The notes beneath the pieces are model-generated. The model was not told the DNA's origin. It saw only the letters and a program-made list of their open reading frames with translations, and ran no database searches. The position numbers were made by a program, and so were the translations under genes. Source: a virus. Taken from it: a stretch of DNA of 42,346 nt. The stretch lies in IMG/VR virus record IMGVR_UViG_3300037140_000379, positions 1 through 42,346 of that record; one strand, written 5' to 3'. Shown here in pieces: positions 5,039 through 38,948 of this stretch (positions are counted from its first letter, which is position 1; every line of letters begins with the position of its first letter).

Positions 5039-5046
5039 GGAAAATG

Positions 5047-5110: not shown

Positions 5111-5126
5111 GGGGACGATCCAAATC

Positions 5127-6707
5127 ATGAAATTTCCAAGTTTGAGCCGCCTGTTTGGGGCGCCGCCGCCGGCGCCGCCGATCATCCAGCGGCCCTTGCA
5201 GCGTGTCCAGGTGACCGTGGGGGCGCGGCGGGGGCAGCGGATGTATGCCGGGGCGCAGGTGACGCGGCTGAATACGGACTGGCCGATCACACTGACGAGC
5301 GCGAACGCGGAGATTCTGGTGAGCGCGATCGCGTTGCGGAGCCGGAACCGGCAATTGGAGCGCGATGACGACTATTTTCGGAACATGCTGTGGCTGCTGG
5401 AGAACAATGTCGTGGGGCATCGCGGGGTAAAGTTTCTGCTGAAGCTGAAAGGGGATGATGAGGGGAGCTATGACACGCCGCTGATCAAGGAGGTTCGGCA
5501 CGCCTGGCATCGTTATTTGCGGCCTCGCAACTGCACGGTATCCCGCAATCTCTCGGGCGTGGAGGTGCAGCGGCTGGCGATGCGGGCGCTGGCGCGGGAT
5601 GGGGTGATGCCGTTTCGGATTTATCGCGGGTTCGACAACGAGTTCAACTTCGCGATCGAGCCGATTGAATGCGACCGGCTGGATCACAATTGGAACCGTC
5701 CGGCGGGCAGCGAGCGTCCGGGCGATCCTTACGGGCGCAATGAAATCCAGTTCGGCGTCGAGATGGACCGATTCAAGGCGCCGGTGGCGTATCACATCCT
5801 GACGCGGCATCCGGGCGACGTGTTTGCCTGGCGGGCGGGCCCGAAGTATCGGGAGCGGGTGCCGGCGCAGGACATCCTGGCGCTGTGGACAGTAGAAAGG
5901 GGCGGCCAGTTCATCGGGATGCCACTCTGGCCATCGGTGGGGGCGCGGCTGAACATGGTGCACCGGTATGAAGAGGCGGAGTTGGTCGCGGCGCGGGTGG
6001 CGGCGGCGAAGGGCGGCTGGTTCAAGAAGGACCCGAACGGTCCGCAGGCGTCGCATTACGAGGGGCCCGAGGATGGGCAGGGGAACAAGCTGACCAACAC
6101 GGAGCCGGGGATGTGGGAGGAGCTGCCGGTGGGGTTCGACCCGATTATCAACGATCCGAAGCATCCGGTGGACGCCTTCGAACCGTTTATGAAGGCGCAA
6201 TTGCGCGGGGCGAGCGCGGGGGCGAGCCTGCCATATAATTCGGTGGCAAGTGACCTGGAAGGGGTCAACTACTCATCCATTCGCGCGGGTCTGCTCGATG
6301 CGAGAGATGGGTTTAAGTATCTGCAAGAGCTGCTGGCCTGGAAGCTGATGGAGCCGTGGTTTGAGGCCTGGCTGCCTTATGCCGTGATGTCGGGTCAGCT
6401 CGACGTGGGGCTGGAGCGCATCCCGGACATCCTCGATTCGATGTGTTGGTATGGGCGGCGGTGGGGCTGGGTGGACCCGCTGAACGACACGCGAGCGGAC
6501 GCCATGGCGGTGGAGTGCGGGTTCACGTCGCGGCGGCGGGTGATTGCCGAGAGCGTCGAGGGCGGGGATGTGGAAGAGGTATTCGAGGAGCAAGACGAGG
6601 ACCAGAAGCTGGCGGCGAAGCACGGGTTGGAATTCGGGATCTACAAGCCGAAGGGCGGGGTGGAGCCGCCGGCGGACGCTAAGGAGCCGGATGCGGTGCC
6701 GATTTGA
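5127..6707 (+). CDS. Phage portal protein (lambda gpB family)
   Basis: 526 residues from the ATG at 5127 (MKFPSLSRLFG). It forms the dodecameric DNA channel at one head vertex and docks the terminase. Lambda-type landmarks: an N-terminal alpha/beta domain with RNRQLERDDDYFRNML, the DPYGRNEIQFGVEMD then APVAYHIL strand pair, RVPAQDILALW, and a C-terminal crown-side segment NYSSIRAGLLDARDGF followed by LMEPWFEAWL. The C-terminus is acidic. It lies on the opposite strand from both capsid and terminase genes. The longer frame upstream reads through repeats and is rejected. Confidence 0.9.
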   Translation: MKFPSLSRLFGAPPPAPPIIQRPLQRVQVTVGARRGQRMYAGAQVTRLNTDWPITLTSANAEILVSAIALRSRNRQLERDDDYFRNMLWLLENNVVGHRGVKFLLKLKGDDEGSYDTPLIKEVRHAWHRYLRPRNCTVSRNLSGVEVQRLAMRALARDGVMPFRIYRGFDNEFNFAIEPIECDRLDHNWNRPAGSERPGDPYGRNEIQFGVEMDRFKAPVAYHILTRHPGDVFAWRAGPKYRERVPAQDILALWTVERGGQFIGMPLWPSVGARLNMVHRYEEAELVAARVAAAKGGWFKKDPNGPQASHYEGPEDGQGNKLTNTEPGMWEELPVGFDPIINDPKHPVDAFEPFMKAQLRGASAGASLPYNSVASDLEGVNYSSIRAGLLDARDGFKYLQELLAWKLMEPWFEAWLPYAVMSGQLDVGLERIPDILDSMCWYGRRWGWVDPLNDTRADAMAVECGFTSRRRVIAESVEGGDVEEVFEEQDEDQKLAAKHGLEFGIYKPKGGVEPPADAKEPDAVPI

Positions 6708-6711
6708 CGGT

Positions 6712-6735
6712 AAGCGGACAAGATGTCCGCGCGCC
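6712..6735. repeat. Dispersed palindromic repeat R1
   Basis: AAGCGGACAAGATGTCCGCG plus CGCC, five bases after the portal stop. One substitution (GG to AA) differs from the family form. Confidence 0.8.
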
Positions 6736-6739
6736 GTCA

Positions 6740-7039
6740 GGAGAAGGGCGGCCAACGGTTTTGACGAGCGAGGCTGCGCTCGGAGGCAAAGCAACCCAGC
6801 CGCTCAGGTTAATATCGCAGGGTGGAGCAGGGAACATCCGCTGAACTTTCCAAAAAAAGCCGGTCAGAACGCACATTGTGTCATCTCGATGGGCGCAGTT
6901 CATGCAGTTATGGACGGTAGATCCAATCACATAGACCAGAGAATGGCGGGGTTTGGAGTGATGGTCAAGCGGCCGAATGAGGAGCAGATCAGGAGAACGG
7001 CGGCCAACAGTTTTGACGAGCGAGACTGCGCTCGGAGGC
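6740..7039. repeat. Pair of about 48-bp direct repeats flanking 200 bp
   Basis: Copies at 6740-6787 and 6991-7039 share GGCGGCCAAC, TTTTGACGAGCGAG and TGCGCTCGGAGGC with a few differences. The second copy forms the 3' end of the LuxR-type gene. Between them I see no convincing gene; a minus-strand frame with CMNCAHRDDTMC could be a remnant of a small zinc-binding protein. Confidence 0.75.
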
Positions 7040-7264
7040 GGCGAGGAGGCAGTTGATTTTGCGGGCGACGGATTCGATTTCGCGGTGATGGATTTTGGAA
7101 ACAAGGTGGGTGGTGGAGTGAGACTGGGTGCGGGCCAGGGCATGGCTGCAATGGGTTTTGACGGTGGCGAGGCTTAGATGGAGGAGGCTGGCGATCTCTT
7201 TGTAAGAGAGGCCGTGCTGCTGGAGTTTATTGATCTGGCGCTGGCGCGGGGACAGCTTATCCAT
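6989..7264 (-). CDS. Small LuxR-type helix-turn-helix regulator
   Basis: 91 residues. The first 45 form a GerE/LuxR DNA-binding domain: LSPRQRQINKLQQHGLSYKE, then IASLLHLSLATVKTHCSHAL, with the canonical 'S.ReveVl.l...G.s.keIA..L..s..TVk.H' spacing. There is no receiver or ligand domain, so it is a stand-alone DNA binder, possibly a phage switch protein. Its last 17 residues are encoded by the duplicated repeat at 6991-7039, so the C-terminus was probably altered by that repeat. Confidence 0.75.
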   Translation of the reverse strand: MDKLSPRQRQINKLQQHGLSYKEIASLLHLSLATVKTHCSHALARTQSHSTTHLVSKIHHREIESVARKINCLLAASERSLARQNCWPPFS

Positions 7265-7316
7265 GGAGGAAAGGTAGCGGTTGTTACCGGGAAGTCAATG
7301 ACATAGTGGACGGGCA

Positions 7317-7393
7317 AAGCGGACAGCAGCGCTAATTCAATAGGAGATCAGAGACTCCTGACGTCGTCTCCTACAGCCTCATGGTCCGCGCGC
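7317..7393. repeat. Repeat R1 interrupted by repeat R2
   Basis: The left half of R1 (AAAGCGGACAG, from 7317) and the right half (GTCCGCGCGCC, to about 7393) are separated by some 50 bp holding R2 (GAGACTCCTGACGTCGTCTC at 7351, then CTACA). This looks like one dispersed repeat inserted into another. Confidence 0.75.
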
Positions 7394-7430
7394 CGGCATA
7401 GTACATAAGGTTGACCAGACGGCGGGGGAG

Positions 7431-7916
7431 ATGGCTGCCAAACTGAGTTCCGCAATGCCAAACAGCGCCGATATCGCCGATCTCCCGATTGCCTCCGCTT
7501 GTGATGATCCGGTGGACCATTTTCTGACGGGCTGGTGCCCGGCGTGCAATCATGCGGTGGACGCGGCTTGCCCGGAGTGCGGGCACCATGTGGAGAGCGC
7601 CGGGGCGACGACGGATGGGGGCGCGGCGAGCGCGTATGAGCGGCCCGAGTTTTACCGGCGGTTTGTGACCCTGCTTCAAAGCGCGCGCAACTCGAAATAC
7701 ATGCTGGGGTGCTACCTGATCGCGACGGGTGACGCCTATGCGGAGGGCGTCAGCATGGAGGAGTTTGCGCGGCAATGGAGTGTTGGAAAAGCGGCGGTGA
7801 GCAAGACGTGCCGAGTCATTTGCCGCCAGTTGGGGTTGCCGCCGAGCCGGTATATGAGGACCGAAGAGACGGCTGCGAAGTTTCGGATGGCGAACCGGAG
7901 GCCACATCGCCTGTGA
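7431..7916 (+). CDS. Zinc-ribbon plus helix-turn-helix DNA-binding protein
   Basis: 161 residues. Residues 36-52 hold CPACNHAVDAACPECGHH, a two-CxxC zinc ribbon. The C-terminal half contains a helix-turn-helix (MEEFARQWSVGKAAVSKTCR) like sigma or Cro-type DNA readers and ends basic. The start has GGGGGAG directly before the ATG. It is the first gene of a run with tight GTGA and ATGA overlaps ahead of Gam, so it is probably an early regulator; a second small terminase-like function cannot be excluded. Confidence 0.6.
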   Translation: MAAKLSSAMPNSADIADLPIASACDDPVDHFLTGWCPACNHAVDAACPECGHHVESAGATTDGGAASAYERPEFYRRFVTLLQSARNSKYMLGCYLIATGDAYAEGVSMEEFARQWSVGKAAVSKTCRVICRQLGLPPSRYMRTEETAAKFRMANRRPHRL

Positions 7917-8506
7917 AAACCAAAAAAAAGGGTTCGGCCTTCCCGCGGATGACTCCACTGCAATGGCTCCGCTGGCGTCTCGGCACGTTTCGCGCCGCCA
8001 AAGGCACGATCAAGCATGTGAGATCGAGCAGGATGTTTCCGCAATCCCTTGTGGACGCCGGGGCAAGGAACAGCGAGTTCATGCGCTACCTGGTATTCTA
8101 TTGGCCGTGGGCTGAAGTCCACAGCTTCGAGATGGACCCGGAGCGCAGACCGATAGGAGAGCGGCACTATATGCGGCTGGGTAGCGAGCCCGGTCACCGG
8201 CTCTCTGAGTTCGTATTCCGCGCCCCCGCGCTCCTCAAAGTGGACTGCGATGAGGACACGATCAAGGTACTGGATGGCGCAGATTTGACGGCATTCGAGT
8301 GGGCTGTGGTAGAAGTGAGCGAGGATGGCAACGGGGCGCTCCCGAATAACCGGAGTGAGATCAACGAGATCATGCGAGCCGCCGGATTTACCCACAGCAA
8401 GGCGGTGGATGCCGTCGTGTGCGTCCGGTCCCACCGGATCGCCCAGACCGACGTGCTTTTCTGGAAGCCGAACTTGTCCCTATGCCAGCGGTGCATGGAA
8501 TTATGA
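7913..8506 (+). CDS. Compact FkbM-like methyltransferase
   Basis: 197 residues from the GTG at 7913, which overlaps the previous stop (GTGA). FkbM-type methyltransferases are SAM-dependent O-methylases, often of sugars or lipids. Visible: a Rossmann motif (LVDAGARNSEFMRYL, then VHSFEMDP, where the acidic end of strand 2 would hold SAM), then LLKVDCDEDTIKVLDGADL, EWAVVEVSED and a C-terminal GFTHSKAVDAVVC. The span between SFEMDP and LLKVDCDE is only about 35 residues, far shorter than usual, and the glycine motif is weak (GARNSE). It may be a shortened host gene, still in an unbroken frame. Confidence 0.6.
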   Translation: MKTKKKGSAFPRMTPLQWLRWRLGTFRAAKGTIKHVRSSRMFPQSLVDAGARNSEFMRYLVFYWPWAEVHSFEMDPERRPIGERHYMRLGSEPGHRLSEFVFRAPALLKVDCDEDTIKVLDGADLTAFEWAVVEVSEDGNGALPNNRSEINEIMRAAGFTHSKAVDAVVCVRSHRIAQTDVLFWKPNLSLCQRCMEL

Positions 8507-9144
8507 ATCACACATCACAATTACAAATCGCGGACAGATTGACCGGGCTGGGGATACGGGTGACTCCACTGGGATTGGAGTTTCCAGAAGAGCTGGCAAT
8601 CGAGGCGTGGGCGGAGGTGGGGCGGGGGCTGTGGCGGGCCGGACAGGTGTGCCAGTGGCGGCTGGGGGATTGGGCGGCTTTTGGTCTGCGCAAGTATGAT
8701 GAGGCACGGGGGAAGAATCGGGCGGATGAGCCGCCGCCGATCACGCTGCGAGATTTCGCCGCGGCCAATGGCATCGAGTATCAGACGCTGCGCAACCTGG
8801 CGTGGGTGAGCCGGGCGATTCCGTTGTCCCGCCGGCGGGACAAGCTGGAATGGACGAAGCACGCGGAGGTGGCGGCGCTGTCGGCGAGTGAGCAAGCCAA
8901 GTGGCTGGACAAAATGGAGCGGGAGGATCTGCCGCGGTCGCAGGTACGGCAGCAGATCCGGCTGAGCCAGGGGGAGAGCAACGCGCTGTTGAAGGATGGG
9001 CCGGTGACCAAGTTTGTCACGAAAGGACTGGATGATTTCACCGCCTGGCTGCGGACGCGGCCGGAGGGTTTTTGGGATGCGGAACATCGGGCGATCTGGC
9101 GGGAGAAGTTGAGGCCGATCGTGGAGTTTTGGGGGGAGCTGTAA
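8503..9144 (+). CDS. Phage DNA-binding/regulatory protein (helix-turn-helix type)
   Basis: 213 residues; the ATG overlaps the previous stop as ATGA. The order LGLEFPEELAIEAWAEVGRG, WRLGDWAAFGLRKY, TLRNLAWVSRAIPLSRRRDK, EWTKHAEVAALSASEQAKWL and SQVRQQIRLSQ is a pattern I have seen in phage and plasmid proteins with ParB-like helical DNA-binding segments, though I cannot name the family. Its neighbours, a zinc-ribbon regulator and Gam, suggest an early role. Confidence 0.5.
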   Translation: MNHTSQLQIADRLTGLGIRVTPLGLEFPEELAIEAWAEVGRGLWRAGQVCQWRLGDWAAFGLRKYDEARGKNRADEPPPITLRDFAAANGIEYQTLRNLAWVSRAIPLSRRRDKLEWTKHAEVAALSASEQAKWLDKMEREDLPRSQVRQQIRLSQGESNALLKDGPVTKFVTKGLDDFTAWLRTRPEGFWDAEHRAIWREKLRPIVEFWGEL

Positions 9145-9150
9145 GTAAGT

Positions 9151-9225
9151 GAGGAAAGCAGAAAGCAGAAAGCAGAAATTGGAAGACCGCTCAATGGCTT
9201 AACGTCGAATATCCAACGTCCAATC
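9151..9225. repeat. Intergenic repeats before gam
   Basis: R3 (GAGGAAAGCAGAAAGCAGAA and more, 9151-9180) followed by CGAATATCCAACGTCCAATC directly before the Gam ATG. Both phrases are verrucomicrobial-type intergenic words from memory. Confidence 0.7.
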
Positions 9226-9786
9226 ATGAAAACGATGCGCATTAAGGTGAGTCTGCCGATGATTAAGTCGCGGGAGGAAGCGGAGGGGGTGATGACCGAA
9301 CTGGCGACGGCGGCTAATGAACAGCGGTTGATCACGGCCGAGCGGGACGCGCTGGTGCTGACGATTAATGACCGGTTCGAGGCGGATCTGGGGGAGTGCG
9401 CCGAGATTCTCACGGAGAAGACTGATGCGCTGCGCGCGTGGGCGGAGGCCAATCCGGATGTGTTCCCCAAGGATTGCAAATCGCTGAAGCTGACGAGTGG
9501 GACGCTGGGTTTCCGAACGGGGATGCCGAAACTGGCGTTGCTATCGCGGGCGTTCAATTGGGACAAGGTGCTGGCATTGTTCCGGGCTTCGGGCTGGGGC
9601 CGGGCGTTCATCCGGACCAAAGAGGAGGTGGACAAGGATGGAATTCTAGCCATGTGCCGCAAGGTGAAGGCGACCGACCGGATCGAGAAATGCCTGAAAC
9701 GGCGAGGGTTGAAGCTGGCACAGGAAGAATCATTTTTCATCGAGCCGGATTTGACGGCGGTGGAGAGTCGGCAGGTTCAGAAGTAA
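9226..9786 (+). CDS. gam: Mu Gam-like host-nuclease inhibitor / DNA-end-binding protein
   Basis: 186 residues. Mu Gam is a Ku-like protein that binds linear DNA ends and blocks exonucleases such as RecBCD. Family landmarks in order: an N-terminal helix with IKSREEAEGVMTELATAANE, a long coiled helix, DALRAWAEANPDVFPKDCKS, the beta turn LTSGTLGFRTGMPKL, the FNWDKVLALFRASGWGRAFI block, RTKEEVDKDGIL, and a C-terminal FFIEPD strand. Length fits the family. It sits at the end of the small early-gene run, separated from the terminase by repeats and a hairpin. Confidence 0.88.
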   Translation: MKTMRIKVSLPMIKSREEAEGVMTELATAANEQRLITAERDALVLTINDRFEADLGECAEILTEKTDALRAWAEANPDVFPKDCKSLKLTSGTLGFRTGMPKLALLSRAFNWDKVLALFRASGWGRAFIRTKEEVDKDGILAMCRKVKATDRIEKCLKRRGLKLAQEESFFIEPDLTAVESRQVQK

Positions 9787-9809
9787 AGCGGACAGGATGT
9801 CCGCGCGCC
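9786..9809. repeat. Dispersed palindromic repeat R1
   Basis: AAGCGGACAGGATGTCCGCG plus CGCC, starting at the last base of the gam stop codon. Confidence 0.85.
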
Positions 9810-9827
9810 GCGCTGAGCCGGAAGGAA

Positions 9828-9849
9828 CGGGGAGGATTGCTCCTCCCCG
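9828..9849 (+). terminator. Strong hairpin after gam (terminator-like)
   Basis: CGGGGAGGA, loop TTGC, TCCTCCCCG: a perfect 9-bp stem. No T-run follows, so an intrinsic terminator is not proven. It sits between convergent gam and terminase genes. Confidence 0.45.
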
Positions 9850-9945
9850 CTGGGCCGCCATGCGCGACTGATCAGAGTTCGCGGAGGGCTCTGTCGACCA
9901 GCAGCGGGGGCGGCCATTCCGCGGTGCGATACGCGGTTAATGTAT

Positions 9946-10100
9946 AATGAGACTCCTGACGTCGTCTCCTACAATTTTACCCCACCATTTACCCAGGCCG
10001 GGGTCGGGAAAGTGGCTGTAATCGAATCGTGGAGCGTTTTTTTGCGCTGAAGATGGTGTAAAGAGGACATAATGAGACTCCTGACGTCGTCTCCTACAAT
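9946..10100. repeat. Two copies of dispersed repeat R2
   Basis: AATGAGACTCCTGACGTCGT then CTCCTACAAT at 9946-9975 and again at 10071-10100, in an otherwise featureless 300-bp gap between gam and the terminase stop. GAGAC/GTCTC and GACGTC give it internal dyad symmetry. Further copies are at 7351 and 14018. Confidence 0.85.
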
Positions 10101-10103
10101 ATG

Positions 10104-12059
10104 TCACTTAAAGCTCCAGTTGCCGCCGGCGCTGGTGCTGAAATCGCCGCCGGTTGAGATGCGTTTGCGGGGGGGCTTTTGGCCCGGAGCGAGGGGGCCT
10201 TTGCCACTGGCCGGCGGGGATGGGCCATGCTTGAGCTGGTAGTCCTTGGGCGGCTCGGCGTTCAGCCCTTTCTTCAATTGCTTGGCGATGTGGGTAATGG
10301 CGGGCTTAAGGATGTCCACTTCGGCGAGGTAATAGACACGGATGTCCAACCCCTCGTTGCGGTCGCGGACTTTCTCATAATTCTCGATGAGGACGCCGCG
10401 GACCTTATGGCTTTTGAGGACTTCGGCGGTGAGCTGGAGGAAGTACTCCTCGTTGTAGCCCTGGCCCTTGGGGAAGTGCATGTAGCGGGGGCCGAGGTCG
10501 GTGACCTTGAGTCGGGCATAAATAGTATCTTTTGCCAGTTTTGCGTTCACGGCGTAAGTGCGTAACCGATAGTGTTTGTTGAAGCGAGTGGTGACCAGGA
10601 TGGGGACGGCGCTGTTCACGCCATAGACCGGGAAGACGCGGGCGAGACCGAACTTTTGAACGAAGGCGCGGACCTTGTGCGGCTTGTGCCGCATGTCGAT
10701 GGCACTCGAGACGATCTTGAGGTCAACGCCATCGGCGCGCCGGTAACTGCGCGAGAGGTGGGCGGCGAGGTCCTGCCAGACATCGTCCTGCTCGGTGTCG
10801 CCGAAGAACTTGCGATATTCGATGCCCCAGGTTTCGTCATCTTCGCCGAGGCCGATGGTTTCGCATTCGAGCCGGTCTTTTTGGACGTCGATGCTGGCGA
10901 GGACAATGACGATGCCCTCGGGCAGGTTATCGGGGGTGTAATCTTCCTGGCGGTCGAGCAGGGGTTTGTGGTCGAGGATGTCGTACGTGCTTTCCCAGAG
11001 TTCGCAGAGGAAGGTATTGGTCCAGACCTGGAGGGCGGCCTCGCCTTTTTTGGTGGCGCGGGTGTGCTCGACGGCCATCTGGTGCAGCCGATTATCGAAG
11101 CCTTTGTGGCAGGGCCAGGGAACGTAGATGCCATTGAGGTGGTAGCCGCGCACGCCGCTGAACGGGGCGGTCGGCCGCCACTCGCCGGCGAAGTACATGT
11201 CGAGGCGCTGGCGGTCATTGAGGGCGGCGCTGCAGGCCGAGCAGAGCAACTCGCATTTCTCCGGCTGGCCCTTGGGCCAGACGACTTGCTTCCAGGTGAG
11301 GATCTGGCGGGCGCCGCACTTGGGGCAGGGGACAAACCAATACCGCTGGTCGGAGCTTTCCCACCATTCCCAAATGATGCTCTGCCCCTTGATGGTAGGG
11401 GTGCTGGCGAGCATTTTGACGCACTTGGGAAAGCTTTCGCCACGCTTGAACAGCAGCTCCAGCGGATCGCCTTCGCTGCCGCAGGAGGGCGGGTTGCTGT
11501 CCACCTCATCCCCTAAGAGGATCTCGCCCGAGGCGCCTCGGAGGGAGGCGGGGGAATTCGCCCCCACGAAAAAGACGCTGCCGCCGAGGAAGTCTTTCAC
11601 GAGGATTGTGTTGCCGCTATCGCGCGAGCGGGCGGGCTTGAGGATGGCCGCCAGGCTGGGGGTGGCCTCGACCATGGGGGAGAATTTCTTCTTGGAGTAT
11701 TTCTCGGCGGCGTCGAGCTGGGGGTACATGACGACGGCGGAGCGGGGGGCCCAATCCATGTGGTAGCCGAGGACGTTGTTGAAAATTTCCGTTTTTCCCA
11801 TGACCTGGCTGGCGCCGATCAAAACGGTCGTGTGTACCGTCGGATCGAGCGGCGCTTCCTGGATTTCCTTTTGGTGCGGGGCATCGGCAGTGCGGTAAAG
11901 GCGGGGGCCTTCGAGCGTCTTGGCGCTCACGCCTTTGGCCACATAGCGGTAGAGCTCCGCCCATTGCCAGATATTGAGGCGCGCCTTGGGCTTAAGGAGC
12001 GCCCCGAGGTCCCGGGCGACCCCCCGGGCCGTCGCGGCGCGGTGGGCGTCAGATAGAAT
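10104..12059 (-). CDS. terL: Terminase large subunit (lambda GpA family)
   Basis: 651 residues if read from an ATT codon at 12059. It cuts concatemeric DNA and drives packaging through the portal. Visible: an ATPase P-loop variant ASQVMGKTE (about 83-91), Walker B LLGDEVD (about 181-187), a CPKCG...CSAC zinc-like insertion, and the C-terminal nuclease region with DVQKDRLECE, SSAIDMRHKPHKV and HFPKGQGYNEEYFLQLTAE. The first ordinary start is GTG at 11942. However, the 39 upstream codons (ALLKPKARLNIWQWAELYRY) match the conserved N-terminus of lambda gpA (roughly LFRPEPQTAVEWADANYYLP). No ATG, GTG or TTG occurs in that frame after its upstream stop. ATT overlapping the small-subunit stop is the likeliest start. 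Confidence 0.9.
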   Translation of the reverse strand: MLSDAHRAATARGVARDLGALLKPKARLNIWQWAELYRYVAKGVSAKTLEGPRLYRTADAPHQKEIQEAPLDPTVHTTVLIGASQVMGKTEIFNNVLGYHMDWAPRSAVVMYPQLDAAEKYSKKKFSPMVEATPSLAAILKPARSRDSGNTILVKDFLGGSVFFVGANSPASLRGASGEILLGDEVDSNPPSCGSEGDPLELLFKRGESFPKCVKMLASTPTIKGQSIIWEWWESSDQRYWFVPCPKCGARQILTWKQVVWPKGQPEKCELLCSACSAALNDRQRLDMYFAGEWRPTAPFSGVRGYHLNGIYVPWPCHKGFDNRLHQMAVEHTRATKKGEAALQVWTNTFLCELWESTYDILDHKPLLDRQEDYTPDNLPEGIVIVLASIDVQKDRLECETIGLGEDDETWGIEYRKFFGDTEQDDVWQDLAAHLSRSYRRADGVDLKIVSSAIDMRHKPHKVRAFVQKFGLARVFPVYGVNSAVPILVTTRFNKHYRLRTYAVNAKLAKDTIYARLKVTDLGPRYMHFPKGQGYNEEYFLQLTAEVLKSHKVRGVLIENYEKVRDRNEGLDIRVYYLAEVDILKPAITHIAKQLKKGLNAEPPKDYQLKHGPSPPASGKGPLAPGQKPPRKRISTGGDFSTSAGGNWSFK

Positions 12060-30479: not shown

Positions 30480-30857
30480 CTAGCGGCAGGTTTCCTTGAC
30501 CCAATCTGACCCAATGTGCCGGATCGGACATCTTTGCGGCGGCACATTGTCGCCATATTGGGTGTCGAGCGATAGACGGCAGCCGACTTCCGGGATGACC
30601 GGGTCAACCGATGGATGTTTGCAGAAGCTCCACATATTTTCGTCGTCATCGGTGGCATCAAAATCAATATGCGGACAGTCTCTGCATTTAGCCGGGATCG
30701 CCGAACCAACCGGCTGCCCTAGCAGCCTGGCTGCTGCCGCCAGACAGAGATGGGGAGCTCTAGCAGCCTTTTGTATGCGCAGCATCGTTGCCAAGCTGGT
30801 AAGTCGCGCGGCTAGTTCCGCATTACTCAGTTCTGACTCATCGGATTGCATTTTCAA
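30480..30857 (-). CDS. Small cysteine-rich protein downstream of the integrase
   Basis: 125 residues from TTG at 30857 (TTGA overlap with the integrase stop), or ATG at 30851. N-terminal helices, then CRDCPHIDFDATDDDENMWS, FCKHP, GCR and RCPIR: five or six cysteines with a histidine that could hold zinc. No family recognised; coupled to the integrase and possibly a directionality or DNA-binding accessory. Confidence 0.5.
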   Translation of the reverse strand: MKMQSDESELSNAELAARLTSLATMLRIQKAARAPHLCLAAAARLLGQPVGSAIPAKCRDCPHIDFDATDDDENMWSFCKHPSVDPVIPEVGCRLSLDTQYGDNVPPQRCPIRHIGSDWVKETCR

Positions 30858-32323
30858 TTGGATCCACGCTTGCCCCAGGCGAAGAGCGTATCGAGGTCCG
30901 GACGCGTGGGGTTGATTGCGAACCAGGCGGCGGCTTCTTCGGCATCCACGGTCTTCTTGTAGTTCTTGTTGATGCGTTCGGGGCTGGTCCCGGCTTCGAG
31001 GGCGACTTTGCCGATGTTCTCGACCAGGGCGAGCCGGCTGCTGATGAAGGTGCGCCGGAGGCCGTTATCCCGCCATTGGACTTTCGCGAGCCGGGCGGCG
31101 CGCTGGAAGGCGTTATTGGCGTTGGCAAGCTCGCAGATTGGCCCGGACGGCCGTGCTTCAGCATAGGGCTTCAGCCAGGCGATGAGGTTGTCGCTCAGGG
31201 GGACGAAACGGTCGCGGCCGATCTTACGGGCGACCTCCTCCCGGACATGGATTCGTTTGCGTTTGAGGTCCACATCGCGCCAATCGAGGACGGGCAGGGG
31301 CTTTCCATTGGGATCTTTGCCGGCGCACATTTCCTCGTGCCGGAGGCCGGCGAAGGCGCCGATGGCCAAGTAGGGAATCATGGTCTTATACGGGCGGCCA
31401 CGGTCGGCCATGCCTTTCTCGATGGACTCGCGGGCGGCCAGGATGCGTTGGAATTCGTCAGCCGGGAAAAGGGCGATCCGGATAGGTTCATCTTTGGCGC
31501 GGTGGACGTCGTCCATGGCGGACCAGTCCCTGGGGACATAGTGGTTGTCCTTAGCGAACCGGTAGAAAGCGACCAGGGCGCCGCGGTAGTTGTTGCGGGT
31601 GCGCCGGGTGACGGGGAGCTTCCGGAGCCAGGCATTGAGATCCGGGCCGGCGATGCTGAGGACCGGGCCGGTGAAGTCCTTGGCGAAACGGCCCAGGCGG
31701 CTGGCGAGGTCTTCCAGGGTGTTTTGCGCCGCGCCATCGGTTTTTCTGGCGGCCAGGAGTTCCTGGAGGATCTCGGGGCAGGTACGGGAGGCGACGCCTT
31801 TGGCGTGATGATCGGCATAGAAGCGCGCGGCGAGCGCCAGGGCCCCGGTGGGGAAATCTCCAATGGCCGCGCGCAGGATGGCCAGGGCGGCGGCGCCGTC
31901 CGCGGCGAAGAGCTCGAGGGAAAGGCCCGAGGGGCGGAGAAGCTCTTCGGCGCGCTGGACGCTGGCTTTTTTGGCCTGACTGAAGCTGAGGAGACTGATC
32001 TGGCCGTTGGAGATGGTGTTGGCGTATTCGCGACCGATGGCTATGATGGCTTTTACGGAGTTCCTGGCTACCCGGCGTCCGCCGGCGGCGGCCGGAAGCT
32101 GGATGTACCACTTTTCATAGATTCGCCGGCGCTTTTTGTCATACCAGCGGCCCTTCCAGCGCCAAAGTGTGACGTAACCGTCGTCGCTTTTTATCGGGAA
32201 ACTTTTTCGCGCGCCCGGAACGTGGAGCGTGAAGGTATCATCCGAGGGGATTTGCCGGCGCGAACGGCCGGGCGCCAGCTCGAACTGTGCCTCGCCGGCA
32301 GTTTGAGGAACGCTAGAAAACAT
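30854..32323 (-). CDS. int: Tyrosine recombinase (phage integrase)
   Basis: 489 residues from the ATG at 32323, which overlaps the upstream stop. It would integrate the phage at the tRNA-like attP about 470 bp away. N-terminal arm-type region (about 25-110), SAM-like core-binding domain (about 150-270), catalytic domain: Arg328 in GAFAGLRHEEM, Lys near 367 in EEVARKIGRDRFVPL, the box II variant WRDNGLRRTFISS (Asn where His is common; Arg423 present), and Tyr455 in RINKNYKKTV. It lacks the extra helix segment typical of integron integrases and it faces a tRNA-type site, so I read it as a phage integrase, not IntI. Confidence 0.85.
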   Translation of the reverse strand: MFSSVPQTAGEAQFELAPGRSRRQIPSDDTFTLHVPGARKSFPIKSDDGYVTLWRWKGRWYDKKRRRIYEKWYIQLPAAAGGRRVARNSVKAIIAIGREYANTISNGQISLLSFSQAKKASVQRAEELLRPSGLSLELFAADGAAALAILRAAIGDFPTGALALAARFYADHHAKGVASRTCPEILQELLAARKTDGAAQNTLEDLASRLGRFAKDFTGPVLSIAGPDLNAWLRKLPVTRRTRNNYRGALVAFYRFAKDNHYVPRDWSAMDDVHRAKDEPIRIALFPADEFQRILAARESIEKGMADRGRPYKTMIPYLAIGAFAGLRHEEMCAGKDPNGKPLPVLDWRDVDLKRKRIHVREEVARKIGRDRFVPLSDNLIAWLKPYAEARPSGPICELANANNAFQRAARLAKVQWRDNGLRRTFISSRLALVENIGKVALEAGTSPERINKNYKKTVDAEEAAAWFAINPTRPDLDTLFAWGKRGSN

Positions 32324-32699
32324 AAGACTGGTAGTCGAATTCCTTGCCGCCGATCCAAACTTTGGTGAGCTTGAACTTGAATGGGTCGAAGCGTTCGCCG
32401 CTGCCATCCTTGGAGAATTCGGCCAGGAGGACAGTGATGGCTTCCCCGGGCGCGAGTGAACCGATCACGTACCGGTACGCGAAAGGCGGGTCGCCGTTGA
32501 TGAAGACGTTGAGGGCAGGCCAATTGGTTTGATCGAGATTCATTATCCCGAGGGTGGTTGCGTCGAAACGAACGTCGGCCTTGACCACCTTGTGCGCCGG
32601 CGCGGATGTCGGGGACGCAACCTGGCTCTCTGAACACAGATCGATCACATAGAGGACGAGAGCGAGGACGAGGAGCGCGGCGAGGCAGTTTTTTATCAT
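32313..32699 (-). CDS. Exported or membrane-anchored protein upstream of int
   Basis: 128 residues from the ATG at 32699. MIKNCLAALLVLALVLYVID is a signal or anchor. The rest is a small beta domain (VKADVRFDATTLGIMNLDQT, LNVFINGDPPFAYRYVIGSL) resembling periplasmic domains of unknown function. It overlaps the integrase start by 11 bp. Confidence 0.6.
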   Translation of the reverse strand: MIKNCLAALLVLALVLYVIDLCSESQVASPTSAPAHKVVKADVRFDATTLGIMNLDQTNWPALNVFINGDPPFAYRYVIGSLAPGEAITVLLAEFSKDGSGERFDPFKFKLTKVWIGGKEFDYQSYVF

Positions 32700-34542: not shown

Positions 34543-34751
34543 GCGCGAAACGATATCGGAATCGAAGTGAGGGGGTGGCGGCCGAGAATTACAAGGAGGC
34601 ACTGCAGGAAGCGCGCGGCGGGGAGTCGCTCTCCAGTGGCCAACAGATTTCTGCCTACGTCACCGAGGCAGAAGAGGGGCGCGTGCTGATTCCACGCCCG
34701 GACGCCGGCGCAGCGACCAACGCCGCTGCGCCGGCTGTTTGCCCCCGATGA
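34539..34751 (+). CDS. Small early protein, unknown
   Basis: 70 residues from the ATG at 34539. Basic N-terminus (MSAKRYRNRSEGVAAENYKE), then disordered. It links by ATGA to genes before and after. Confidence 0.55.
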   Translation: MSAKRYRNRSEGVAAENYKEALQEARGGESLSSGQQISAYVTEAEEGRVLIPRPDAGAATNAAAPAVCPR

Positions 34752-34966
34752 ACCAGGACGCCCCAACAACGCAGGCCGATGGCGCTTTTCTGACGCCGCA
34801 GCAGTTGTGTGCTCGCTGGCAGATGGCGGAGCGGACGTTGCGGGAGTGGAATAGGCGCCGGGTGGTGCCATTTTTTAAGCTCGGTGGAAAGCTACTCCGA
34901 TATCGGCGCGCGGACGTCGAGGCGTTCGAAGGCAAGGGCTGGCGGGCTGCCCGGAGGACCAAATGA
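34748..34966 (+). CDS. Excisionase/MerR-like helix-turn-helix protein
   Basis: 72 residues from the ATG at 34748. FLTPQQLCARWQMAERTLRE, then WNRRRVVPFFKLGGKLLRYR and RADVEAFEG is the winged helix-turn-helix of the HTH_17/excisionase group. It could be the Xis partner of the integrase or an early regulator. Confidence 0.75.
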   Translation: MNQDAPTTQADGAFLTPQQLCARWQMAERTLREWNRRRVVPFFKLGGKLLRYRRADVEAFEGKGWRAARRTK

Positions 34967-35055
34967 CTATGAGCAAAATCCAAAAACGACAAACAGGACG
35001 GCGATCCCGCCGTCCGTCTCCAGCCTATGACAAAACTCTGGCAACACATGTCTGA
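34963..35055 (+). CDS. Possible 30-residue ORF over the hairpin at the array edge
   Basis: The ATG overlaps the excisionase stop. The product is very basic (MTMSKIQKRQTGRRSRRPSP). It coincides with a hairpin and with attC-like sequence, so it may not be a gene. Confidence 0.25.
   Translation: MTMSKIQKRQTGRRSRRPSPAYDKTLATHV
34985..35018 (+). other. Hairpin resembling attC halves at the left edge of the cassette array
   Basis: AACGACAAAC leads into GGACGGCG-ATCC-CGCCGTCC (perfect 8-bp stem, 34996-35015). AACGACAAAC and ATCCCGCCGTCCG also occur in the arms of the attC at 35234-35322. It may be a decayed or collapsed attC, or a terminator after the early operon. Confidence 0.35.
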
Positions 35056-35284
35056 AACGCACGGCGTGCTTCTGCTCGAATCGGAAGAATCTGACATCCG
35101 ATGGGCGGCAAATGAAGATGCCGAAAACGAACGCATCAAGCTCATAAACCAAGTGACGCAACTTATCTCCGAAAATCTGCGGCTCAAAAAAGCCATCCGT
35201 GAAACACTGGACGACAACCTGCATCTTGCCGACGGTGAACGACAAACTCTGCGGCGGCGGGCCACTGAGCAACAAAACGACTGA
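35027..35284 (+). CDS. Cassette A: coiled-coil protein
   Basis: 85 residues (ATG at 35048 is an alternative). Coiled coil through INQVTQLISENLRLKKAIRE, with acidic SEESDIRWAANEDAENER before it. Its C-terminal codons lie within the 5' arm of the first attC, as is common for cassette genes. The cassette's own left end is missing: no GTT matching its R'' box lies upstream, so it is a partial cassette or the array junction. Confidence 0.6.
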   Translation: MTKLWQHMSETHGVLLLESEESDIRWAANEDAENERIKLINQVTQLISENLRLKKAIRETLDDNLHLADGERQTLRRRATEQQND

Positions 35285-35322
35285 AGCGGAATCCCGCCGT
35301 CCGCTGGAGTGATTGGTTAGCC
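35234..35322 (+). other. attC site A
   Basis: R'' GGTGAAC (35234), spacer GACAA, L'' ACTCTGCGGCGGCGGG (35246-35261). Then L' CCCGCCGTCCGCTGGAGT (35293-35310), spacer GATTG, R' GTTAGCC (35316-35322). The arms pair over the L boxes with two extra bases on the L' side and one mismatch. Confidence 0.75.
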
Positions 35323-35326
35323 GATT

Positions 35327-35533
35327 ATGCCCACCTACAAACAGATAGCAACGTGTCATCACCGCATGGGGCATTACTCGTGGTCGCCGTCTGGCACTGA
35401 CCGTGGAGATGTGCGGTTGTGTGGCAAATCCGCAACGCACGTCGCGGAGTATCCAGGAAAACCACCGTCTTACTTTTGCCGGAAACATGCAAGGACTCGA
35501 AGCTATGTGCGCGAGTTGCCGACACCAAGGTGA
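35327..35533 (+). CDS. Cassette B: small Cys/His protein
   Basis: 68 residues, starting just after the recombination point of attC A. Contains CHHRMGHYS, LCGKSATHVAEYPGKPPSYF and CRKHAR, a CxH/C...CxxH pattern that could bind zinc. Nothing else recognised; small orphan proteins of this kind are typical of integron cassettes. Confidence 0.6.
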   Translation: MPTYKQIATCHHRMGHYSWSPSGTDRGDVRLCGKSATHVAEYPGKPPSYFCRKHARTRSYVRELPTPR

Positions 35534-35666
35534 GTGGCGGCGGCGATAAACACTGACTATGAGCACGACACCAACCGACAAATTTGAAGTGACTCCGCCA
35601 CGGTGGCGGTGCTGCTTCCATCCGACTACCGGCGATCCGGCTGTTGGCTCACGCGACTTGTTATGC
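35517..35666 (+). other. Weak attC site B
   Basis: A 5' half resembles that of site E (ACCAAGGTGAGTGGCGGCGG, compared with ACTGAGGTGAGCAGCGGCG). The 3' half is L' CGGCTGTTGGCTCACGC (35638-35654), spacer GACTT, R' GTTATGC (35660-35666), like site C. The two halves pair poorly with each other, so the site is degenerate or a hybrid. The R' is well formed: its TTATGC matches the R'' of cassette C. Confidence 0.5.
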
Positions 35667-35963
35667 TGCGTCGCACTCGCATGCGCTGAAGCCGTCCAAT
35701 ACGAGTCCGGCCCCACACTCAACGCCGAACACATCAAGCCGGTACTCGAAAAGTATCTGCCGCGATGGGTCGAGAAATACTACGTGCCGAAGCGCCCCGG
35801 ATGGCACTACACCCGGAACCTCGATGGCACCATCTCCGCCCGCTACTTCGACGACAGTAAACAAAGCTGGTGGGCCAGCAACGCCCGCGATGGATGGACA
35901 CCCAACGACTCATTCACCGAATGGCTACAGGTGCCCGGTGTGTCAGAGAACCAAGCAGCATAA
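35559..35963 (+). CDS. Cassette C: protein of unknown function
   Basis: 134 residues in the longest frame, but the cassette boundary (35660/35661) falls inside it. The native start may be TTG at 35658, giving about 101 residues. After the boundary: a helix with ACAEAVQYESGPTLNAEHIK, then YLPRWVEKYYVPKRPGWHYT, DGTISARYFDD and SWWASNARDGWTPNDSFTEW, a Trp/Tyr-rich alpha/beta protein. The stop TAA is inside the R'' box of site C. Unknown family. Confidence 0.6.
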   Translation: MSTTPTDKFEVTPPRWRCCFHPTTGDPAVGSRDLLCCVALACAEAVQYESGPTLNAEHIKPVLEKYLPRWVEKYYVPKRPGWHYTRNLDGTISARYFDDSKQSWWASNARDGWTPNDSFTEWLQVPGVSENQAA

Positions 35964-36066
35964 CCGTCAAGCCAAGCCACAGCCGCGAATGACCACAATG
36001 CTTCAATCTCAAAACGGGCATCCTGCTACCAGCGATCCGGCTGTTGGCTTCGGCGCATGGTTGGGC
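35958..36066 (+). other. attC site C
   Basis: R'' GCATAAC (35958), spacer CGTCAA, L'' GCCAAGCCACAGCCG (35971-35985). L' CGGCTGTTGGCTTCGGC (36038-36054), spacer GCATG, R' GTTGGGC (36060-36066). L boxes pair as GCC-AAGCC-ACAGCCG against GCCGAAGCCAACAGCCG, two extra bases. R'' is exactly complementary to the first bases of its own cassette (GTTATGC at 35660). Confidence 0.85.
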
Positions 36067-36089
36067 ATCACGTCAAACTGCAAACAAAT

Positions 36090-36719
36090 ATGAAAAAAAT
36101 AGTAAGCCTGTATCAACGGAACTACGACGGCGACCGCCTCGTAAGAAACGAAATCGTGCCGGGTGCTGAATGGGTGGCAGCCGGTGAGGGCATCGCCACA
36201 CGAAAGCATGATGGAACGTGCTGCATGGTGCGCGATGGGAAACTCTGGAAGCGATACGACGCCAAGCAAGGCAAGACACCTCCGCCGGGATTCGAGGCAG
36301 CGCAAGAGCCAGACGCCGTGACTGGACATCATCCGGGATGGCTGCCGGTCGGTGATGACAATGGCGACCAATGGCATCGTGAGGCTCTAAACGCTGCGGG
36401 CGGAACTCTGCCAGATGGCACATACGAACTGTGTGGGCCGAAAATCCAAGGCAACCCGGAACGACTACCGACGCATCAACTCATCCCGCATGGATGCGAA
36501 AAACTCGACGCTCCTCGAACCTTCGATGAAATCAAGGCGTGGCTCGCGGACAAGAACATCGAGGGCATCGTCTGGCATCATCCCGATGGCCGTATGGTGA
36601 AAATCAAGACGCGCGACTTCGGTATGAAGCGAGTGATGCCCAACACCGAACTCAGCAGCGGCGGGACTGCTGATAAACGACAACAAACAGAGCAGGCTGC
36701 CCGCCGTCTGCTGAAGTGA
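36090..36719 (+). CDS. Cassette D: RNA-ligase-like nucleotidyltransferase
   Basis: 209 residues from the ATG at 36090. Covalent nucleotidyltransferase (ligase superfamily) motifs in order: motif I KHDG with Lys39 as the AMP-accepting lysine (ATRKHDGTCC), KRYD after it, motif III DGTYELCGPKIQGNPE (Glu113), motif IV NIEGIVWHHPDG (Glu158), and motif V MVKIKTRDFG (Lys171, Lys173). Length and the short motif I fit DUF5565/RNA-ligase-type enzymes that seal nicked RNA. The last 25 or so residues are encoded by attC D. It could repair tRNA cut by host anti-phage nucleases; that role is inference. Confidence 0.75.
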   Translation: MKKIVSLYQRNYDGDRLVRNEIVPGAEWVAAGEGIATRKHDGTCCMVRDGKLWKRYDAKQGKTPPPGFEAAQEPDAVTGHHPGWLPVGDDNGDQWHREALNAAGGTLPDGTYELCGPKIQGNPERLPTHQLIPHGCEKLDAPRTFDEIKAWLADKNIEGIVWHHPDGRMVKIKTRDFGMKRVMPNTELSSGGTADKRQQTEQAARRLLK

Positions 36720-36729
36720 TTGGTTCGGA
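36638..36729 (+). other. attC site D
   Basis: R'' GCCCAAC (36638), spacer ACCGA, L'' ACTCAGCAGCGGCGGG (36650-36665). L' CCCGCCGTCTGCTGAAGT (36700-36717), spacer GATTG, R' GTTCGGA (36723-36729). Pairing ACT-CAGCAG-CGGCGGG with ACTTCAGCAGACGGCGGG leaves two extra bases. R'' is exactly complementary to the start of its own cassette (GTTGGGC at 36060). Confidence 0.88.
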
Positions 36730-36731
36730 AT

Positions 36732-36917
36732 ATGCAACTATACGTGCAGGTCTCATTCTGGCTCGGGCTCATCGTGACGCTCATCCGGCTCATCGAAATG
36801 GGCGTCATCGAATGGCCACAGGAACGGAAACCGAAGTCGCTGGGCCAGCAAGTGGCGGAAATGATTATCGGAATAGTCATAATGCTCTGGGCCGGATGGC
36901 TCTTATGGGCGAGGTGA
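36732..36917 (+). CDS. Cassette E: two-segment membrane protein
   Basis: 61 residues from the ATG at 36732, nine bases after the recombination point. Membrane segments MQLYVQVSFWLGLIVTLIRL and MIIGIVIMLWAGWLLW around a charged loop (QERKPKSLGQQ). Small membrane proteins are common in cassettes; function unknown. Confidence 0.65.
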   Translation: MQLYVQVSFWLGLIVTLIRLIEMGVIEWPQERKPKSLGQQVAEMIIGIVIMLWAGWLLWAR

Positions 36918-36918
36918 T

Positions 36919-37021
36919 TCCGAACACTGAGGTGAGCAGCGGCGATTAAACCAAGCGATCCTATGCCAAAGACAACTCACGAAAACCCGAACCTCCCGTC
37001 TGCTCGACCGCTTGGTTCGGC
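36919..37021 (+). other. attC site E
   Basis: R'' TCCGAAC (36919), spacer ACTGA, L'' GGTGAGCAGCGG (36931-36942). L' CCGTCTGCTCGACC (36996-37009), spacer GCTTG, R' GTTCGGC (37015-37021). GGT-GAGCAG-CGG pairs with GGTCGAGCAGACGG, two extra bases. R'' is exactly complementary to its own cassette start (GTTCGGA at 36723). Confidence 0.88.
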
Positions 37022-37244
37022 GTCCGGTGTGTATCCAACCCTCCGAGCCGCCGAGGAAGCGCATGGACCCTGCCCGAGGCCAATCACCGAGGACGGAAGC
37101 CACTGGTGGTATAACGACTGGGATGCAATAGAACGCAGGACGCATCGGCGCGGAGCACTCCTCGACAGTTGGCCGTGCATGTGCAAGACGTGTGGCCTGA
37201 GAGTGGAGACAAGCGTAAATGCGCCAGACCATCCCGAGGTATGA
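36963..37244 (+). CDS. Cassette F: small protein with Cys pair
   Basis: 93 residues from ATG at 36963, but that ATG lies in the loop of attC E, belonging to the previous cassette; GTG at 37029 is the first start within cassette F (MYPTLRAAEEAHG...). Core: ITEDGSHWWYNDWDAIERRT, then DSWPCMCKTCGLRVETSVN with a CxCxxC cluster. Unknown function. Confidence 0.55.
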   Translation: MPKTTHENPNLPSARPLGSASGVYPTLRAAEEAHGPCPRPITEDGSHWWYNDWDAIERRTHRRGALLDSWPCMCKTCGLRVETSVNAPDHPEV

Positions 37245-37245
37245 C

Positions 37246-37376
37246 GCCGAACGATCAAGCTGAGCCACGGCCCGGCGAATAACCAATGATATGAGCGAAG
37301 AAACCAAACCACCGACGACCACTGACGTAGTAACCGAACAGGACAAGGGCCGTTGTGCTCCAGCGCCTGGTTCGGC
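37246..37376 (+). other. attC site F
   Basis: R'' GCCGAAC (37246), spacer GATCAA, L'' GCTGAGCCACGGCCC (37259-37273). L' GGGCCGTTGTGCTCCAGC (37347-37364), spacer GCCTG, R' GTTCGGC (37370-37376). R'' and R' are perfectly complementary, and R'' matches its own cassette start (GTTCGGC at 37015). Confidence 0.85.
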
Positions 37377-37557
37377 ATTCCCAGGCCGACGCTGGGTCTG
37401 CTGCCACACCCGCAAATGCGGGTGGGTCGGATCGGAGCCCGAACTGGTGCAAGTGCCCAGCAAGCGGTTTGGAAAACAGGGCATAAAAGCTACGGACGGC
37501 ACCTGCCCGCGCTGCGGTGGCGGGAAATTCTACATCCGCCCCCTGCCGAACGATTGA
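37291..37557 (+). CDS. Cassette G: zinc-ribbon protein
   Basis: 88 residues in the longest frame; the first 30 come from the attC F loop. The native part starts near GRRWVCCHTRKCGWVGSEPE and ends GTCPRCGGGKFYIRPLPND. CC...C and CPRCG make a zinc ribbon like those in small nucleic-acid-binding proteins. The codons for its last residues include the R'' box GCCGAAC of a truncated attC. Confidence 0.6.
   Translation: MSEETKPPTTTDVVTEQDKGRCAPAPGSAFPGRRWVCCHTRKCGWVGSEPELVQVPSKRFGKQGIKATDGTCPRCGGGKFYIRPLPND
37545..37557 (+). other. Truncated attC (R'' box and spacer only)
   Basis: GCCGAAC then GATTG, exactly complementary to the start of cassette G (GTTCGGC at 37370), but no L'' or 3' half follows before phage-like genes resume. 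This marks the right edge of the intact array. Confidence 0.65.
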
Positions 37558-37839: not shown

Positions 37840-38100
37840 ATGAACACACACGCAGGCAACGTTTCAGGGAGTTTTGCGCAGCTCAAGCGGGGGTCGCCGT
37901 TCTACCGGTTGTTCGATGGCGGTCGGGTTCCGCTCAAAAACATCCGACCCAAGATGGCCGAAAGTATCGGGGACGGCGTGCCGGAGGCATTCATGCTCGA
38001 TATGGAAAAGTTCACCGCGAGGCAATATTACGCGGCGATCCATTGGGTGCGCCACCGCTGCGACCCCAGTTCTACGCTGGACCGGCGGCGCGAAAACTGA
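37840..38100 (+). CDS. Small protein before the replication initiator
   Basis: 86 residues. FAQLKRGSPFYRLFDGGRVP, then GVPEAFMLDMEKFTARQYYA and a basic end. The stop TGA overlaps the next ATG (TGATG). Unknown family; coupled to the replication gene. Confidence 0.55.
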   Translation: MNTHAGNVSGSFAQLKRGSPFYRLFDGGRVPLKNIRPKMAESIGDGVPEAFMLDMEKFTARQYYAAIHWVRHRCDPSSTLDRRREN

Positions 38101-38948
38101 TGAATACCAGCACGTCAGAAACTGTTGTCAGCCCGGCGAGCCCGCCGTCTGCTGAAGTGCCGGATGCTGATTTTCGGAAGCTATTTCTGACGCTGGCTTG
38201 CGCACTATCCTTCGATGCTCTGCGTCTGAAGCCGCGAGAAAAGCAGCTCGCCCTGATCTTGGGCCTGGAATCCTTTGCGAATGGTTTAGGATTCGGTGCG
38301 ATTGACATGGGCGCCTGGCGATTACGGCTATCCACCTGGCGAAGCAACGAATTGAAGAACATGATCGCGGATTGGAAACGCTCTGGCTGGCTCGCGCTCG
38401 ATGCGACTGAGAAAACATTCCGGCTCGCGCCGGATCGTTTCCCAGGCTGGGTTGACGTGCAGACGATCGCGGGCTCGGAGCAGAGGAACGGCACCCTGGG
38501 TCTGCTGACCGAAGACGACCTCCCTAAGACGCTTGCGAAATTTTCGCAAGAAGCTGCGAAATTTTCGCAACGGGGGGTAGGGGGGATCTCGGAAACGTTT
38601 AATCGTTCCGACGTAAAACGATCAAACGTTGAACGTTTTAACGTTGGATCTTGCGAAAATTTCGCAACTTCGGATGAGGTGTCAAACCTGAAAGACCTGG
38701 TCAGGAAATTCGTGGGGGACGCTGACTGGTCAGATAAACGTTTGTGGAACTCAGGTCTGGGATATCGTCACACAATATTCATGGAAGAATCGACTCGGCT
38801 GAGGAACGCGCTGAATTACTGCGAAGCAGGGTTGAAGAGCGGGGAGTGCCGCATCAAAAAAACACGCGGCGCCATGCTCTGGAATGAATTCCAAAGGTTG
38901 CGCCGAGAGCCGTTAATGCGTATTGATATTCGTCCGGCGACGGCGTAA
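38100..38948 (+). CDS. Putative replication initiator (lambda O-like organisation)
   Basis: 282 residues from the ATG at 38100. The N-terminal domain (about 20-130) has a winged-helix look: LKPREKQLALILGLESFANG, then WRLRLSTWRSNELKNMIADW and KRSGWLALDATEKTFRLAPD. A low-complexity middle (LAKFSQEAAKFSQRG; FNRSDVKRSNVERFNV) is encoded by palindromic repeats. The C-terminal 90 residues are helical and could contact a helicase loader. Initiators such as lambda O carry their origin iterons inside the gene, which is what the repeats here look like. No P/DnaC-like partner is obvious. Assignment is by architecture. Confidence 0.55.
   Translation: MNTSTSETVVSPASPPSAEVPDADFRKLFLTLACALSFDALRLKPREKQLALILGLESFANGLGFGAIDMGAWRLRLSTWRSNELKNMIADWKRSGWLALDATEKTFRLAPDRFPGWVDVQTIAGSEQRNGTLGLLTEDDLPKTLAKFSQEAAKFSQRGVGGISETFNRSDVKRSNVERFNVGSCENFATSDEVSNLKDLVRKFVGDADWSDKRLWNSGLGYRHTIFMEESTRLRNALNYCEAGLKSGECRIKKTRGAMLWNEFQRLRREPLMRIDIRPATA
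38112..38158 (+). other. Possible attC remnant inside the initiator's 5' end
   Basis: CCCGCCGTCTGCTGAAGTG at 38141 is identical over 19 bases to the L' arm of attC D (36700). No R' box follows and the 5' arm is poor, so it may be a leftover from a lost cassette. Confidence 0.35.
38531..38668. repeat. Origin-like iterons inside the replication gene
   Basis: TTGCGAAATTTTCGCAA near 38532, its relative TGCGAAATTTTCGCA at 38555, and TTGCGAAAATTTCGCAA near 38651 are self-complementary. Between them AACGTT occurs at 38594, 38625, 38632 and 38640. The region is AT-rich for this genome. It suits initiator-binding sites, although the AACGTT part also resembles a verrucomicrobial word repeat. Confidence 0.6.

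Follow-up and report, generated by a model that had tools for sequence, protein, structure and literature searches.

IMG/VR record IMGVR_UViG_3300037140_000379, analyzed here over its full length of 42,346 bp as the window, is a temperate tailed phage that very probably carries an array of integron-type cassettes of inverted polarity, lacking an integron integrase (IntI). In the textbook view, integrons are bacterial platforms whose cassettes have a polarity set by their transcription from the cassette promoter Pc. In the window, five attC recombination sites lie on the strand opposite to that of the cassette genes, and the same reversal recurs in most phage-borne arrays that were surveyed. 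Judging from these sequences, phages appear to hold a pool of polarity-inverted cassettes that is apparently unreported: a search of the open-access literature, with preprints and most subscription journals outside its scope, returned no report of this polarity.

Five attC sites without an integrase

All five attC sites prove genuine. For an independent check, 13 attC sites drawn from class 1 resistance plasmids, from the bacterial metagenome-assembled genome (MAG) contig L025 and from phage TJE1 were combined in a covariance model, R1, with the orientation of every site taken from its gene; scans were run without filters, and the E-values are rough. The top five R1 matches in the record are exactly these sites (Table 1), at E-values of 1.4e-4 to 0.13, the weakest being site 5 (37246) at only 0.13, and the sixth-ranked match scores 12.0 bits. 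R1 gave no match at E<=0.1 in a further 248 kb of phage sequence, which took in loci of RNA-ligase phages and of terminase relatives. A scanner based on R boxes and pairing arms, with a score threshold of at least 25, reports four sites in the whole 42-kb record, all within the array (35234, 35958, 36638 and 37246), while the fifth, at 36919, scores 24, just under the threshold. In 1000 dinucleotide-shuffled versions of the array region, two sites scoring at least 25 never occurred together. A first-pass annotation made from the letters alone had placed good attC sites at these five positions and had proposed a covariance-model search, which has now ranked them first. Its additional weaker site at 35517 was missed by R1 and has no matching left box.

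Within the sites, paired R boxes (RYYYAAC and GTTRRRY) enclose paired L boxes, and two extra bases placed six apart are clear in four of the five; site 37246 carries three extra bases, less regularly spaced. In their R boxes, L boxes, pair of extra bases and complementarity of successive boxes, the window cassettes resemble those of class 1 and class 3 integrons. By eye, cassettes C to G each open with bases perfectly complementary to the left box that follows, and the adjacent-box count scores three of these pairs. This complementarity had been pointed out in the first-pass annotation as a sign that the units moved as circles, and complementary unit ends of this kind are indeed the signature expected of circular intermediates.

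A TIGR02249 search for an integron integrase over the whole record returned no match even at E<=10. Terminase, portal, major head protein and tyrosine integrase are all present by Pfam and PHROGs profiles, and mark a tailed temperate phage. With at least two attC sites and no nearby IntI, the window harbors a cluster of attC sites lacking integron integrases (CALIN), in agreement with the earlier description of a CALIN-like array in a temperate phage.

Inverted polarity of the cassettes

The extra bases of all five window sites lie in the right arm. In clean class 1 sites, with genes on the plus strand, they lie in the left arm, and the extra-base arm adjoins the 3' end of the gene in every case. 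R1 likewise assigns all five window sites to the minus strand; the array genes, the RNA ligase among them, are on the plus strand. A canonical cassette has gene and attC in the same direction and can be expressed from Pc; those of the window do not have this form. Class 1 and class 3 cassettes are gene+attC units expressed from Pc, whereas those of the window would be attC+gene units, antisense to any Pc.

Extrahelical bases choose the recombining strand, and inverting them makes the top strand recombine and moves the crossover to R'' (Bouvier et al., PMC2727003). Because the extra bases set the recombining strand and here sit in the opposite arm, each window unit is predicted to consist of an attC followed by a gene, with the cut in the left box at YYYAA/C. 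For site 36638-36729, the crossover would fall in GCCCAAC rather than in GGTTCGGA. Units drawn in this way keep the loop-internal start codons of open reading frames (ORFs) C, F and G with their own genes. The first-pass annotation had recognized the paired R and L boxes and two extra bases at fixed positions, and these observations stand. Its placement of the extra bases as in aadA-type sites does not, since relative to the genes they occupy the opposite arm, so that its R''/L'' and L'/R' labels are swapped; its cassette orientation and boundaries (gene+attC, cut at G/TT) give way to minus-strand attC sites and attC+gene units.

Survey of phage arrays in IMG/VR

Contigs for comparison were selected by two attC arm patterns, neither of which holds gene information. 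The first pattern, scanned over IMG/VR, returned 88 stretches, in which R1 at E<=0.01 found 180 sites in 66 loci; adding the window and dropping one duplicated stretch gave 62 contigs for scoring, within each of which all sites share a strand. Compared with the strand of the nearby genes, the sites divide into 168 antiparallel, 11 mixed and 2 parallel, and the contigs into 58 antiparallel, 2 mixed and 2 parallel. The best gene is antiparallel in each of the 76 cassettes bounded by two sites, and merging contigs that share more than 1 kb leaves 51 of 55 sequence clusters antiparallel. Among the contigs of a second attC family, whose core is class-1-like, 39 are antiparallel, 8 mixed and 2 parallel, and the cassettes of this family divide 75:7 in favor of antiparallel. 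Pfam matches confirm the gene strand for N6/N4 and MT-A70 methyltransferases, PAPS reductases, an RNA ligase and DHHA1 proteins. A terminase, sought with one Pfam family only, was found in 13 of 49 array-bearing records, and none of their loci is parallel; IntI passed the cut-off in only one of the 49. A blastn query with a single short attC from a phage had no match among named phages or plasmids.

Annotated genes run parallel to attC in class 1 integrons, a class 3 integron (L149), a cyanobacterial plasmid (L147) and the host-derived integron of Shewanella phage M16-3 (L148), and most attC sites and annotated genes share a strand in a Vibrio phage fragment (L150). A bacterial integron caught in IMG/VR (L196, 14 sites) is mostly parallel by the same gene finder as the phage arrays. 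The contig names of L196, which looks bacterial, and of the second family's two parallel contigs differ in form from those of metagenome contigs; from IMG numbering, we take these contigs to be isolate-derived proviruses. A contrast search of bacterial genomes of two phyla found no attC, so the bacterial side of the comparison is modest, made up of plasmids, a single MAG contig and integrons of host origin found in phages.

Natural junctions between phage contigs

Of 91 pairs of adjacent boxes, 59 match in full, whereas shuffles averaged 6.4 matching pairs and never exceeded 16. Several cassettes are common, at 99-100% identity, to otherwise unrelated contigs (L046/L085, L082/L109, L087/L094 and the start of L072/L079). 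The identity starts at a left box, spans attC and gene, and ends at the next left box; in L087/L094 its start is shifted by a one-base indel. The L032/L033 pair ends at a right box, and the attC sequences are identical there, so that this case is ambiguous. Canonical cassettes are expected to break at the right box, G/TTRRRY. The breaks at left boxes coincide with the crossover box predicted for antiparallel attC sites.

Phage contigs carrying IntI

Three phage contigs carry both an array and an IntI: that of L142 scores 474 bits to TIGR02249, L145 has a 72% identical IntI, and the IntI of L160 is 59% identical to IntI1. In all three, the array lies 5' of intI and the attC sites are directed away from it, which is the canonical geometry, while the cassette genes run toward intI, along the phage operon. 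The geometry of attC to IntI being canonical, it is the extra bases that are normal and the gene that is turned round. The chromosomal integrons of Vibrio and Shewanella and the cyanobacterial plasmid integron share this attC-to-IntI geometry, but their genes run mostly away from intI. L154 had also been considered as an antiparallel IntI contig and was dropped from this comparison, being bacterial-like with a parallel cassette gene; it is still counted among the 39 antiparallel contigs of the second family. In L142/L143 (IMGVR 3300020042_007480), a box GCCTAAC directly 5' of intI resembles an attI junction.

Relation to known phage-borne cassettes

Phage CALINs have been published for TJE1, P12002L and PH101 (Qi et al. 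2023, PMC9892861): five of six tested phage attC sites recombine with attI1 by IntI1, methyltransferases are among the cargo, and Vibrio and Shewanella phages are known to carry host cassettes. These CALINs resemble the window in being attC arrays without IntI inside phage genomes, and the presence of an array is therefore not new by itself. Unlike the window and most of the IMG/VR arrays examined, which are antiparallel, the TJE1 sites are parallel to their genes. No analysis of attC and gene polarity was encountered in the accessible portion of that paper, and phage Rctr41k (KX853513) is not in its table of complete phage integrons. Rctr41k, like the IntI-bearing array contigs, combines a phage genome with IntI and attC-like sites, of which it has six; it differs in having parallel cassettes and an intI co-directional with the array. 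Its annotated xerD (4680-5678) is an IntI homologue, 48% identical to the IntI of L142, and is followed by the six attC-like sites (6641-10101).

Interpretation and alternative explanations

The explanation favored here, and held to be very probable, is that the window phage carries an IntI-less array of inverted units, each made of an attC and a small gene against which the attC is directed. A further-reaching explanation, with a probability of roughly 60%, is that phages have their own integron system: a pool of inverted cassettes, exchanged among unrelated phages and mobilized either by phage IntI, as encoded in L142, L145 and L160, or by host IntI in trans, whose polarity would hold the genes in the sense direction of phage operons and set the pool apart from bacterial integrons. 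The gene-sense strand would fold into the attC hairpin and be cut at YYYAA/C. An IntI supplied in trans by the host or a co-infecting phage would excise and insert the units, which may pass between phages as circles. Expression would come from the phage's own rightward operon or promoter rather than from Pc, and the reversal would keep the gene in sense when a phage promoter reads the array toward its attI end. It may also separate the two pools, bacterial cassettes being antisense in a phage array and phage cassettes antisense in a bacterial integron. For the window phage, recombination activity, the mobilizing enzyme and expression are all inferred from sequence.

Several observations weigh against the favored explanation. 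The parallel cassettes of TJE1 (L042) and Rctr41k (L146) mean that inverted polarity is not universal in phages; among the phage arrays examined, the reversal is general, though not universal. Inside its predicted unit 2, the RNA ligase gene lacks a stop codon and runs on into the following attC. None of the window's own units turned up elsewhere, and its cut points consequently rest on analogy with cassettes common to other phages. The phage has no close relatives, the best terminase large subunit (TerL) relatives reaching 53% identity at most, and no empty-site relative was found.

The arrays could instead be ordinary host cassettes picked up by a phage, that is, a standard CALIN of canonical gene+attC units. 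Host cassettes are known in Vibrio and Shewanella phages (PMC9892861), and those of TJE1 are parallel. All five window sites, however, are antiparallel both by R1 and by their extra bases, and the units shared between other contigs extend over the upstream attC and have their ends at left boxes, which makes this origin very improbable. It also renders doubtful the first-pass suggestion that the array is mainly a route for host cassettes, as the near-universal opposite polarity argues for a separate phage pool. An unlikely reading, but one deserving more weight, is that the sites descend from an ancient array and have become degenerate and immobile, with no role left except as spacers, translation starts or hairpins of the phage operon. 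The ORF starts within attC loops (35559, 36963 and 37291), the one decayed site, the half-sites left at 38141 and the absence of IntI from the record would all fit such decay. They have to be set against boxes of five successive units that still match exactly, five sites that retain arms and extra bases, and 99-100% identical units in differing neighborhoods of other phages.

Mobilization by a phage recombinase other than IntI, for instance the tyrosine integrase at 30854-32407, reading attC-like hairpins in the other polarity, is improbable. The rarity of IntI above the cut-off in array-bearing records and the presence of another tyrosine recombinase in the window speak for it, but that enzyme matches phage integrases rather than TIGR02249, and wherever IntI is present the attC sites keep canonical geometry to it. 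That the antiparallel result is an artefact of wrong-strand gene calling or of contig selection is scarcely credible. The gene finder is a home-made codon-usage model, which replaced greedy longest-ORF calling whose gene strands were noisy, and this too counts against the favored explanation, as does the picking of contigs by two arm patterns. Those patterns carry no gene information, however; Pfam and PHROGs matches fix the strand, annotated bacterial controls are parallel, and L196 is mostly parallel with the same gene finder.

If phages do hold their own inverted pool, they run a separate gene-exchange network and are not mere carriers of host cassettes. DNA methyltransferases abound in the cargo of this pool, which also includes PAPS-reductase-like proteins and RNA ligases. 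Polarity would provide a sequence-only criterion for separating phage from bacterial cassettes, with a bearing on the origin of new cassettes. It also predicts that the sense strand recombines, with the crossover in the other box.

Features of the array and of the record

Table 1. Coordinates of the attC sites, predicted cassette units, genes and other features in the window
Feature	Position	Strand	Evidence or remark
attC site 1	35234-35322	-	left box GGTGAAC, cut 35239/35240; 26.8 bits; extra bases in right arm
attC site 2	35958-36066	-	left box GCATAAC, cut 35963/35964; 20.2 bits
attC site 3	36638-36729	-	left box GCCCAAC, cut 36643/36644; 29.0 bits; fold z = -4.5
attC site 4	36919-37021	-	left box TCCGAAC, cut 36924/36925; 29.5 bits
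attC site 5	37246-37376	-	left box GCCGAAC, cut 37251/37252; 16.6 bits
Weak or decayed attC-like site, 5' of ORF C	35517-35665		right box GTTATGC complements GCATAAC at 35958; sequence; missed by R1
Bare terminal box GCCGAAC, no attC behind	37545-37551	-	place equivalent to attI-side array end
Decayed half-site	38141-38163	-	20/23 bases of site 3 extra-base arm; inside start of gene 38043-38948
Predicted unit 1 (site 1, ORFs B and C)	35240-35963		cuts by analogy with shared cassettes
Predicted unit 2 (site 2, RNA ligase gene)	35964-36643		cuts by analogy
Predicted unit 3 (site 3, ORF E)	36644-36924		cuts by analogy
Predicted unit 4 (site 4, ORF F)	36925-37251		cuts by analogy
Predicted unit 5 (site 5, ORF G)	37252-37550		cuts by analogy
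ORF A, 85 aa	35027-35284	+	ORF list; no Pfam match
ORF B, 68 aa, function not assigned	35327-35533	+	ORF list, Pfam search
ORF C, 134 aa, function not assigned	35559-35963	+	stop TAA falls in left box of site 2
RNA ligase, phage family phrog_14301	36057-36719	+	phrog_14301 E 1.4e-80; PF17720 E 8.5e-17
ORF E, small protein, probably membrane (by eye)	36720-36917	+	ORF list
ORF F, 93 aa	36963-37244	+	sequence, ORF list; listed ATG within attC site 4 loop
ORF G, 88 aa, zinc-ribbon-like (by eye)	37291-37557	+	ORF list; listed ATG within attC site 5 loop
HTH_17 excisionase-like protein, left of array	34739-34966	+	PF12728 E 3.4e-8; phrog_66
Phage tyrosine integrase, not IntI	30854-32407	-	phrog_1 E 1.3e-15; no TIGR02249 match
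Terminase large subunit	10104-11942	-	phrog_15 E 2.4e-168; marks record as tailed phage

The RNA ligase probably starts at 36090, and its C-terminal tail is encoded by site 3. No attC was found near its relatives in Mycobacterium, Cellulophaga and Burkholderia phages. In a Mu-like phage (L003, 5565-5981), an RNA ligase 67% identical to that of the window is followed by two antiparallel attC sites; with a further case in L078 (12144-12746), RNA ligases thus recur beside such sites. The bare box at the end of the array complements GTTCGGC at 37370, and decayed attC half-sites flank the array on both sides, at 34970-35030 and at the position given in Table 1. Searches of IMG/VR found no relatives of ORF C or of the replication-region protein, and no Rfam family matched in the window.

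The record is one linear IMG/VR entry and is possibly incomplete, and the other contigs taken from IMG/VR may likewise be partial. The head protein (2294-4411, minus strand), the portal (4950-6707, plus strand) and the terminase lie on mixed strands, which is unusual for a tailed phage. Near the left end of the record, positions 528-1034 hold low-complexity repeats, of TTTGPPHHHRTAS and IPAG type in translation.

Among the phage array contigs, left boxes read NNNTAAC in 141 of 181 sites, so that the TAA stop codon of a gene can fall precisely on the cut point. Right boxes in some cases read GTTATGY, with an ATG, and the extra-base arm often includes a Shine-Dalgarno-like GGAG.

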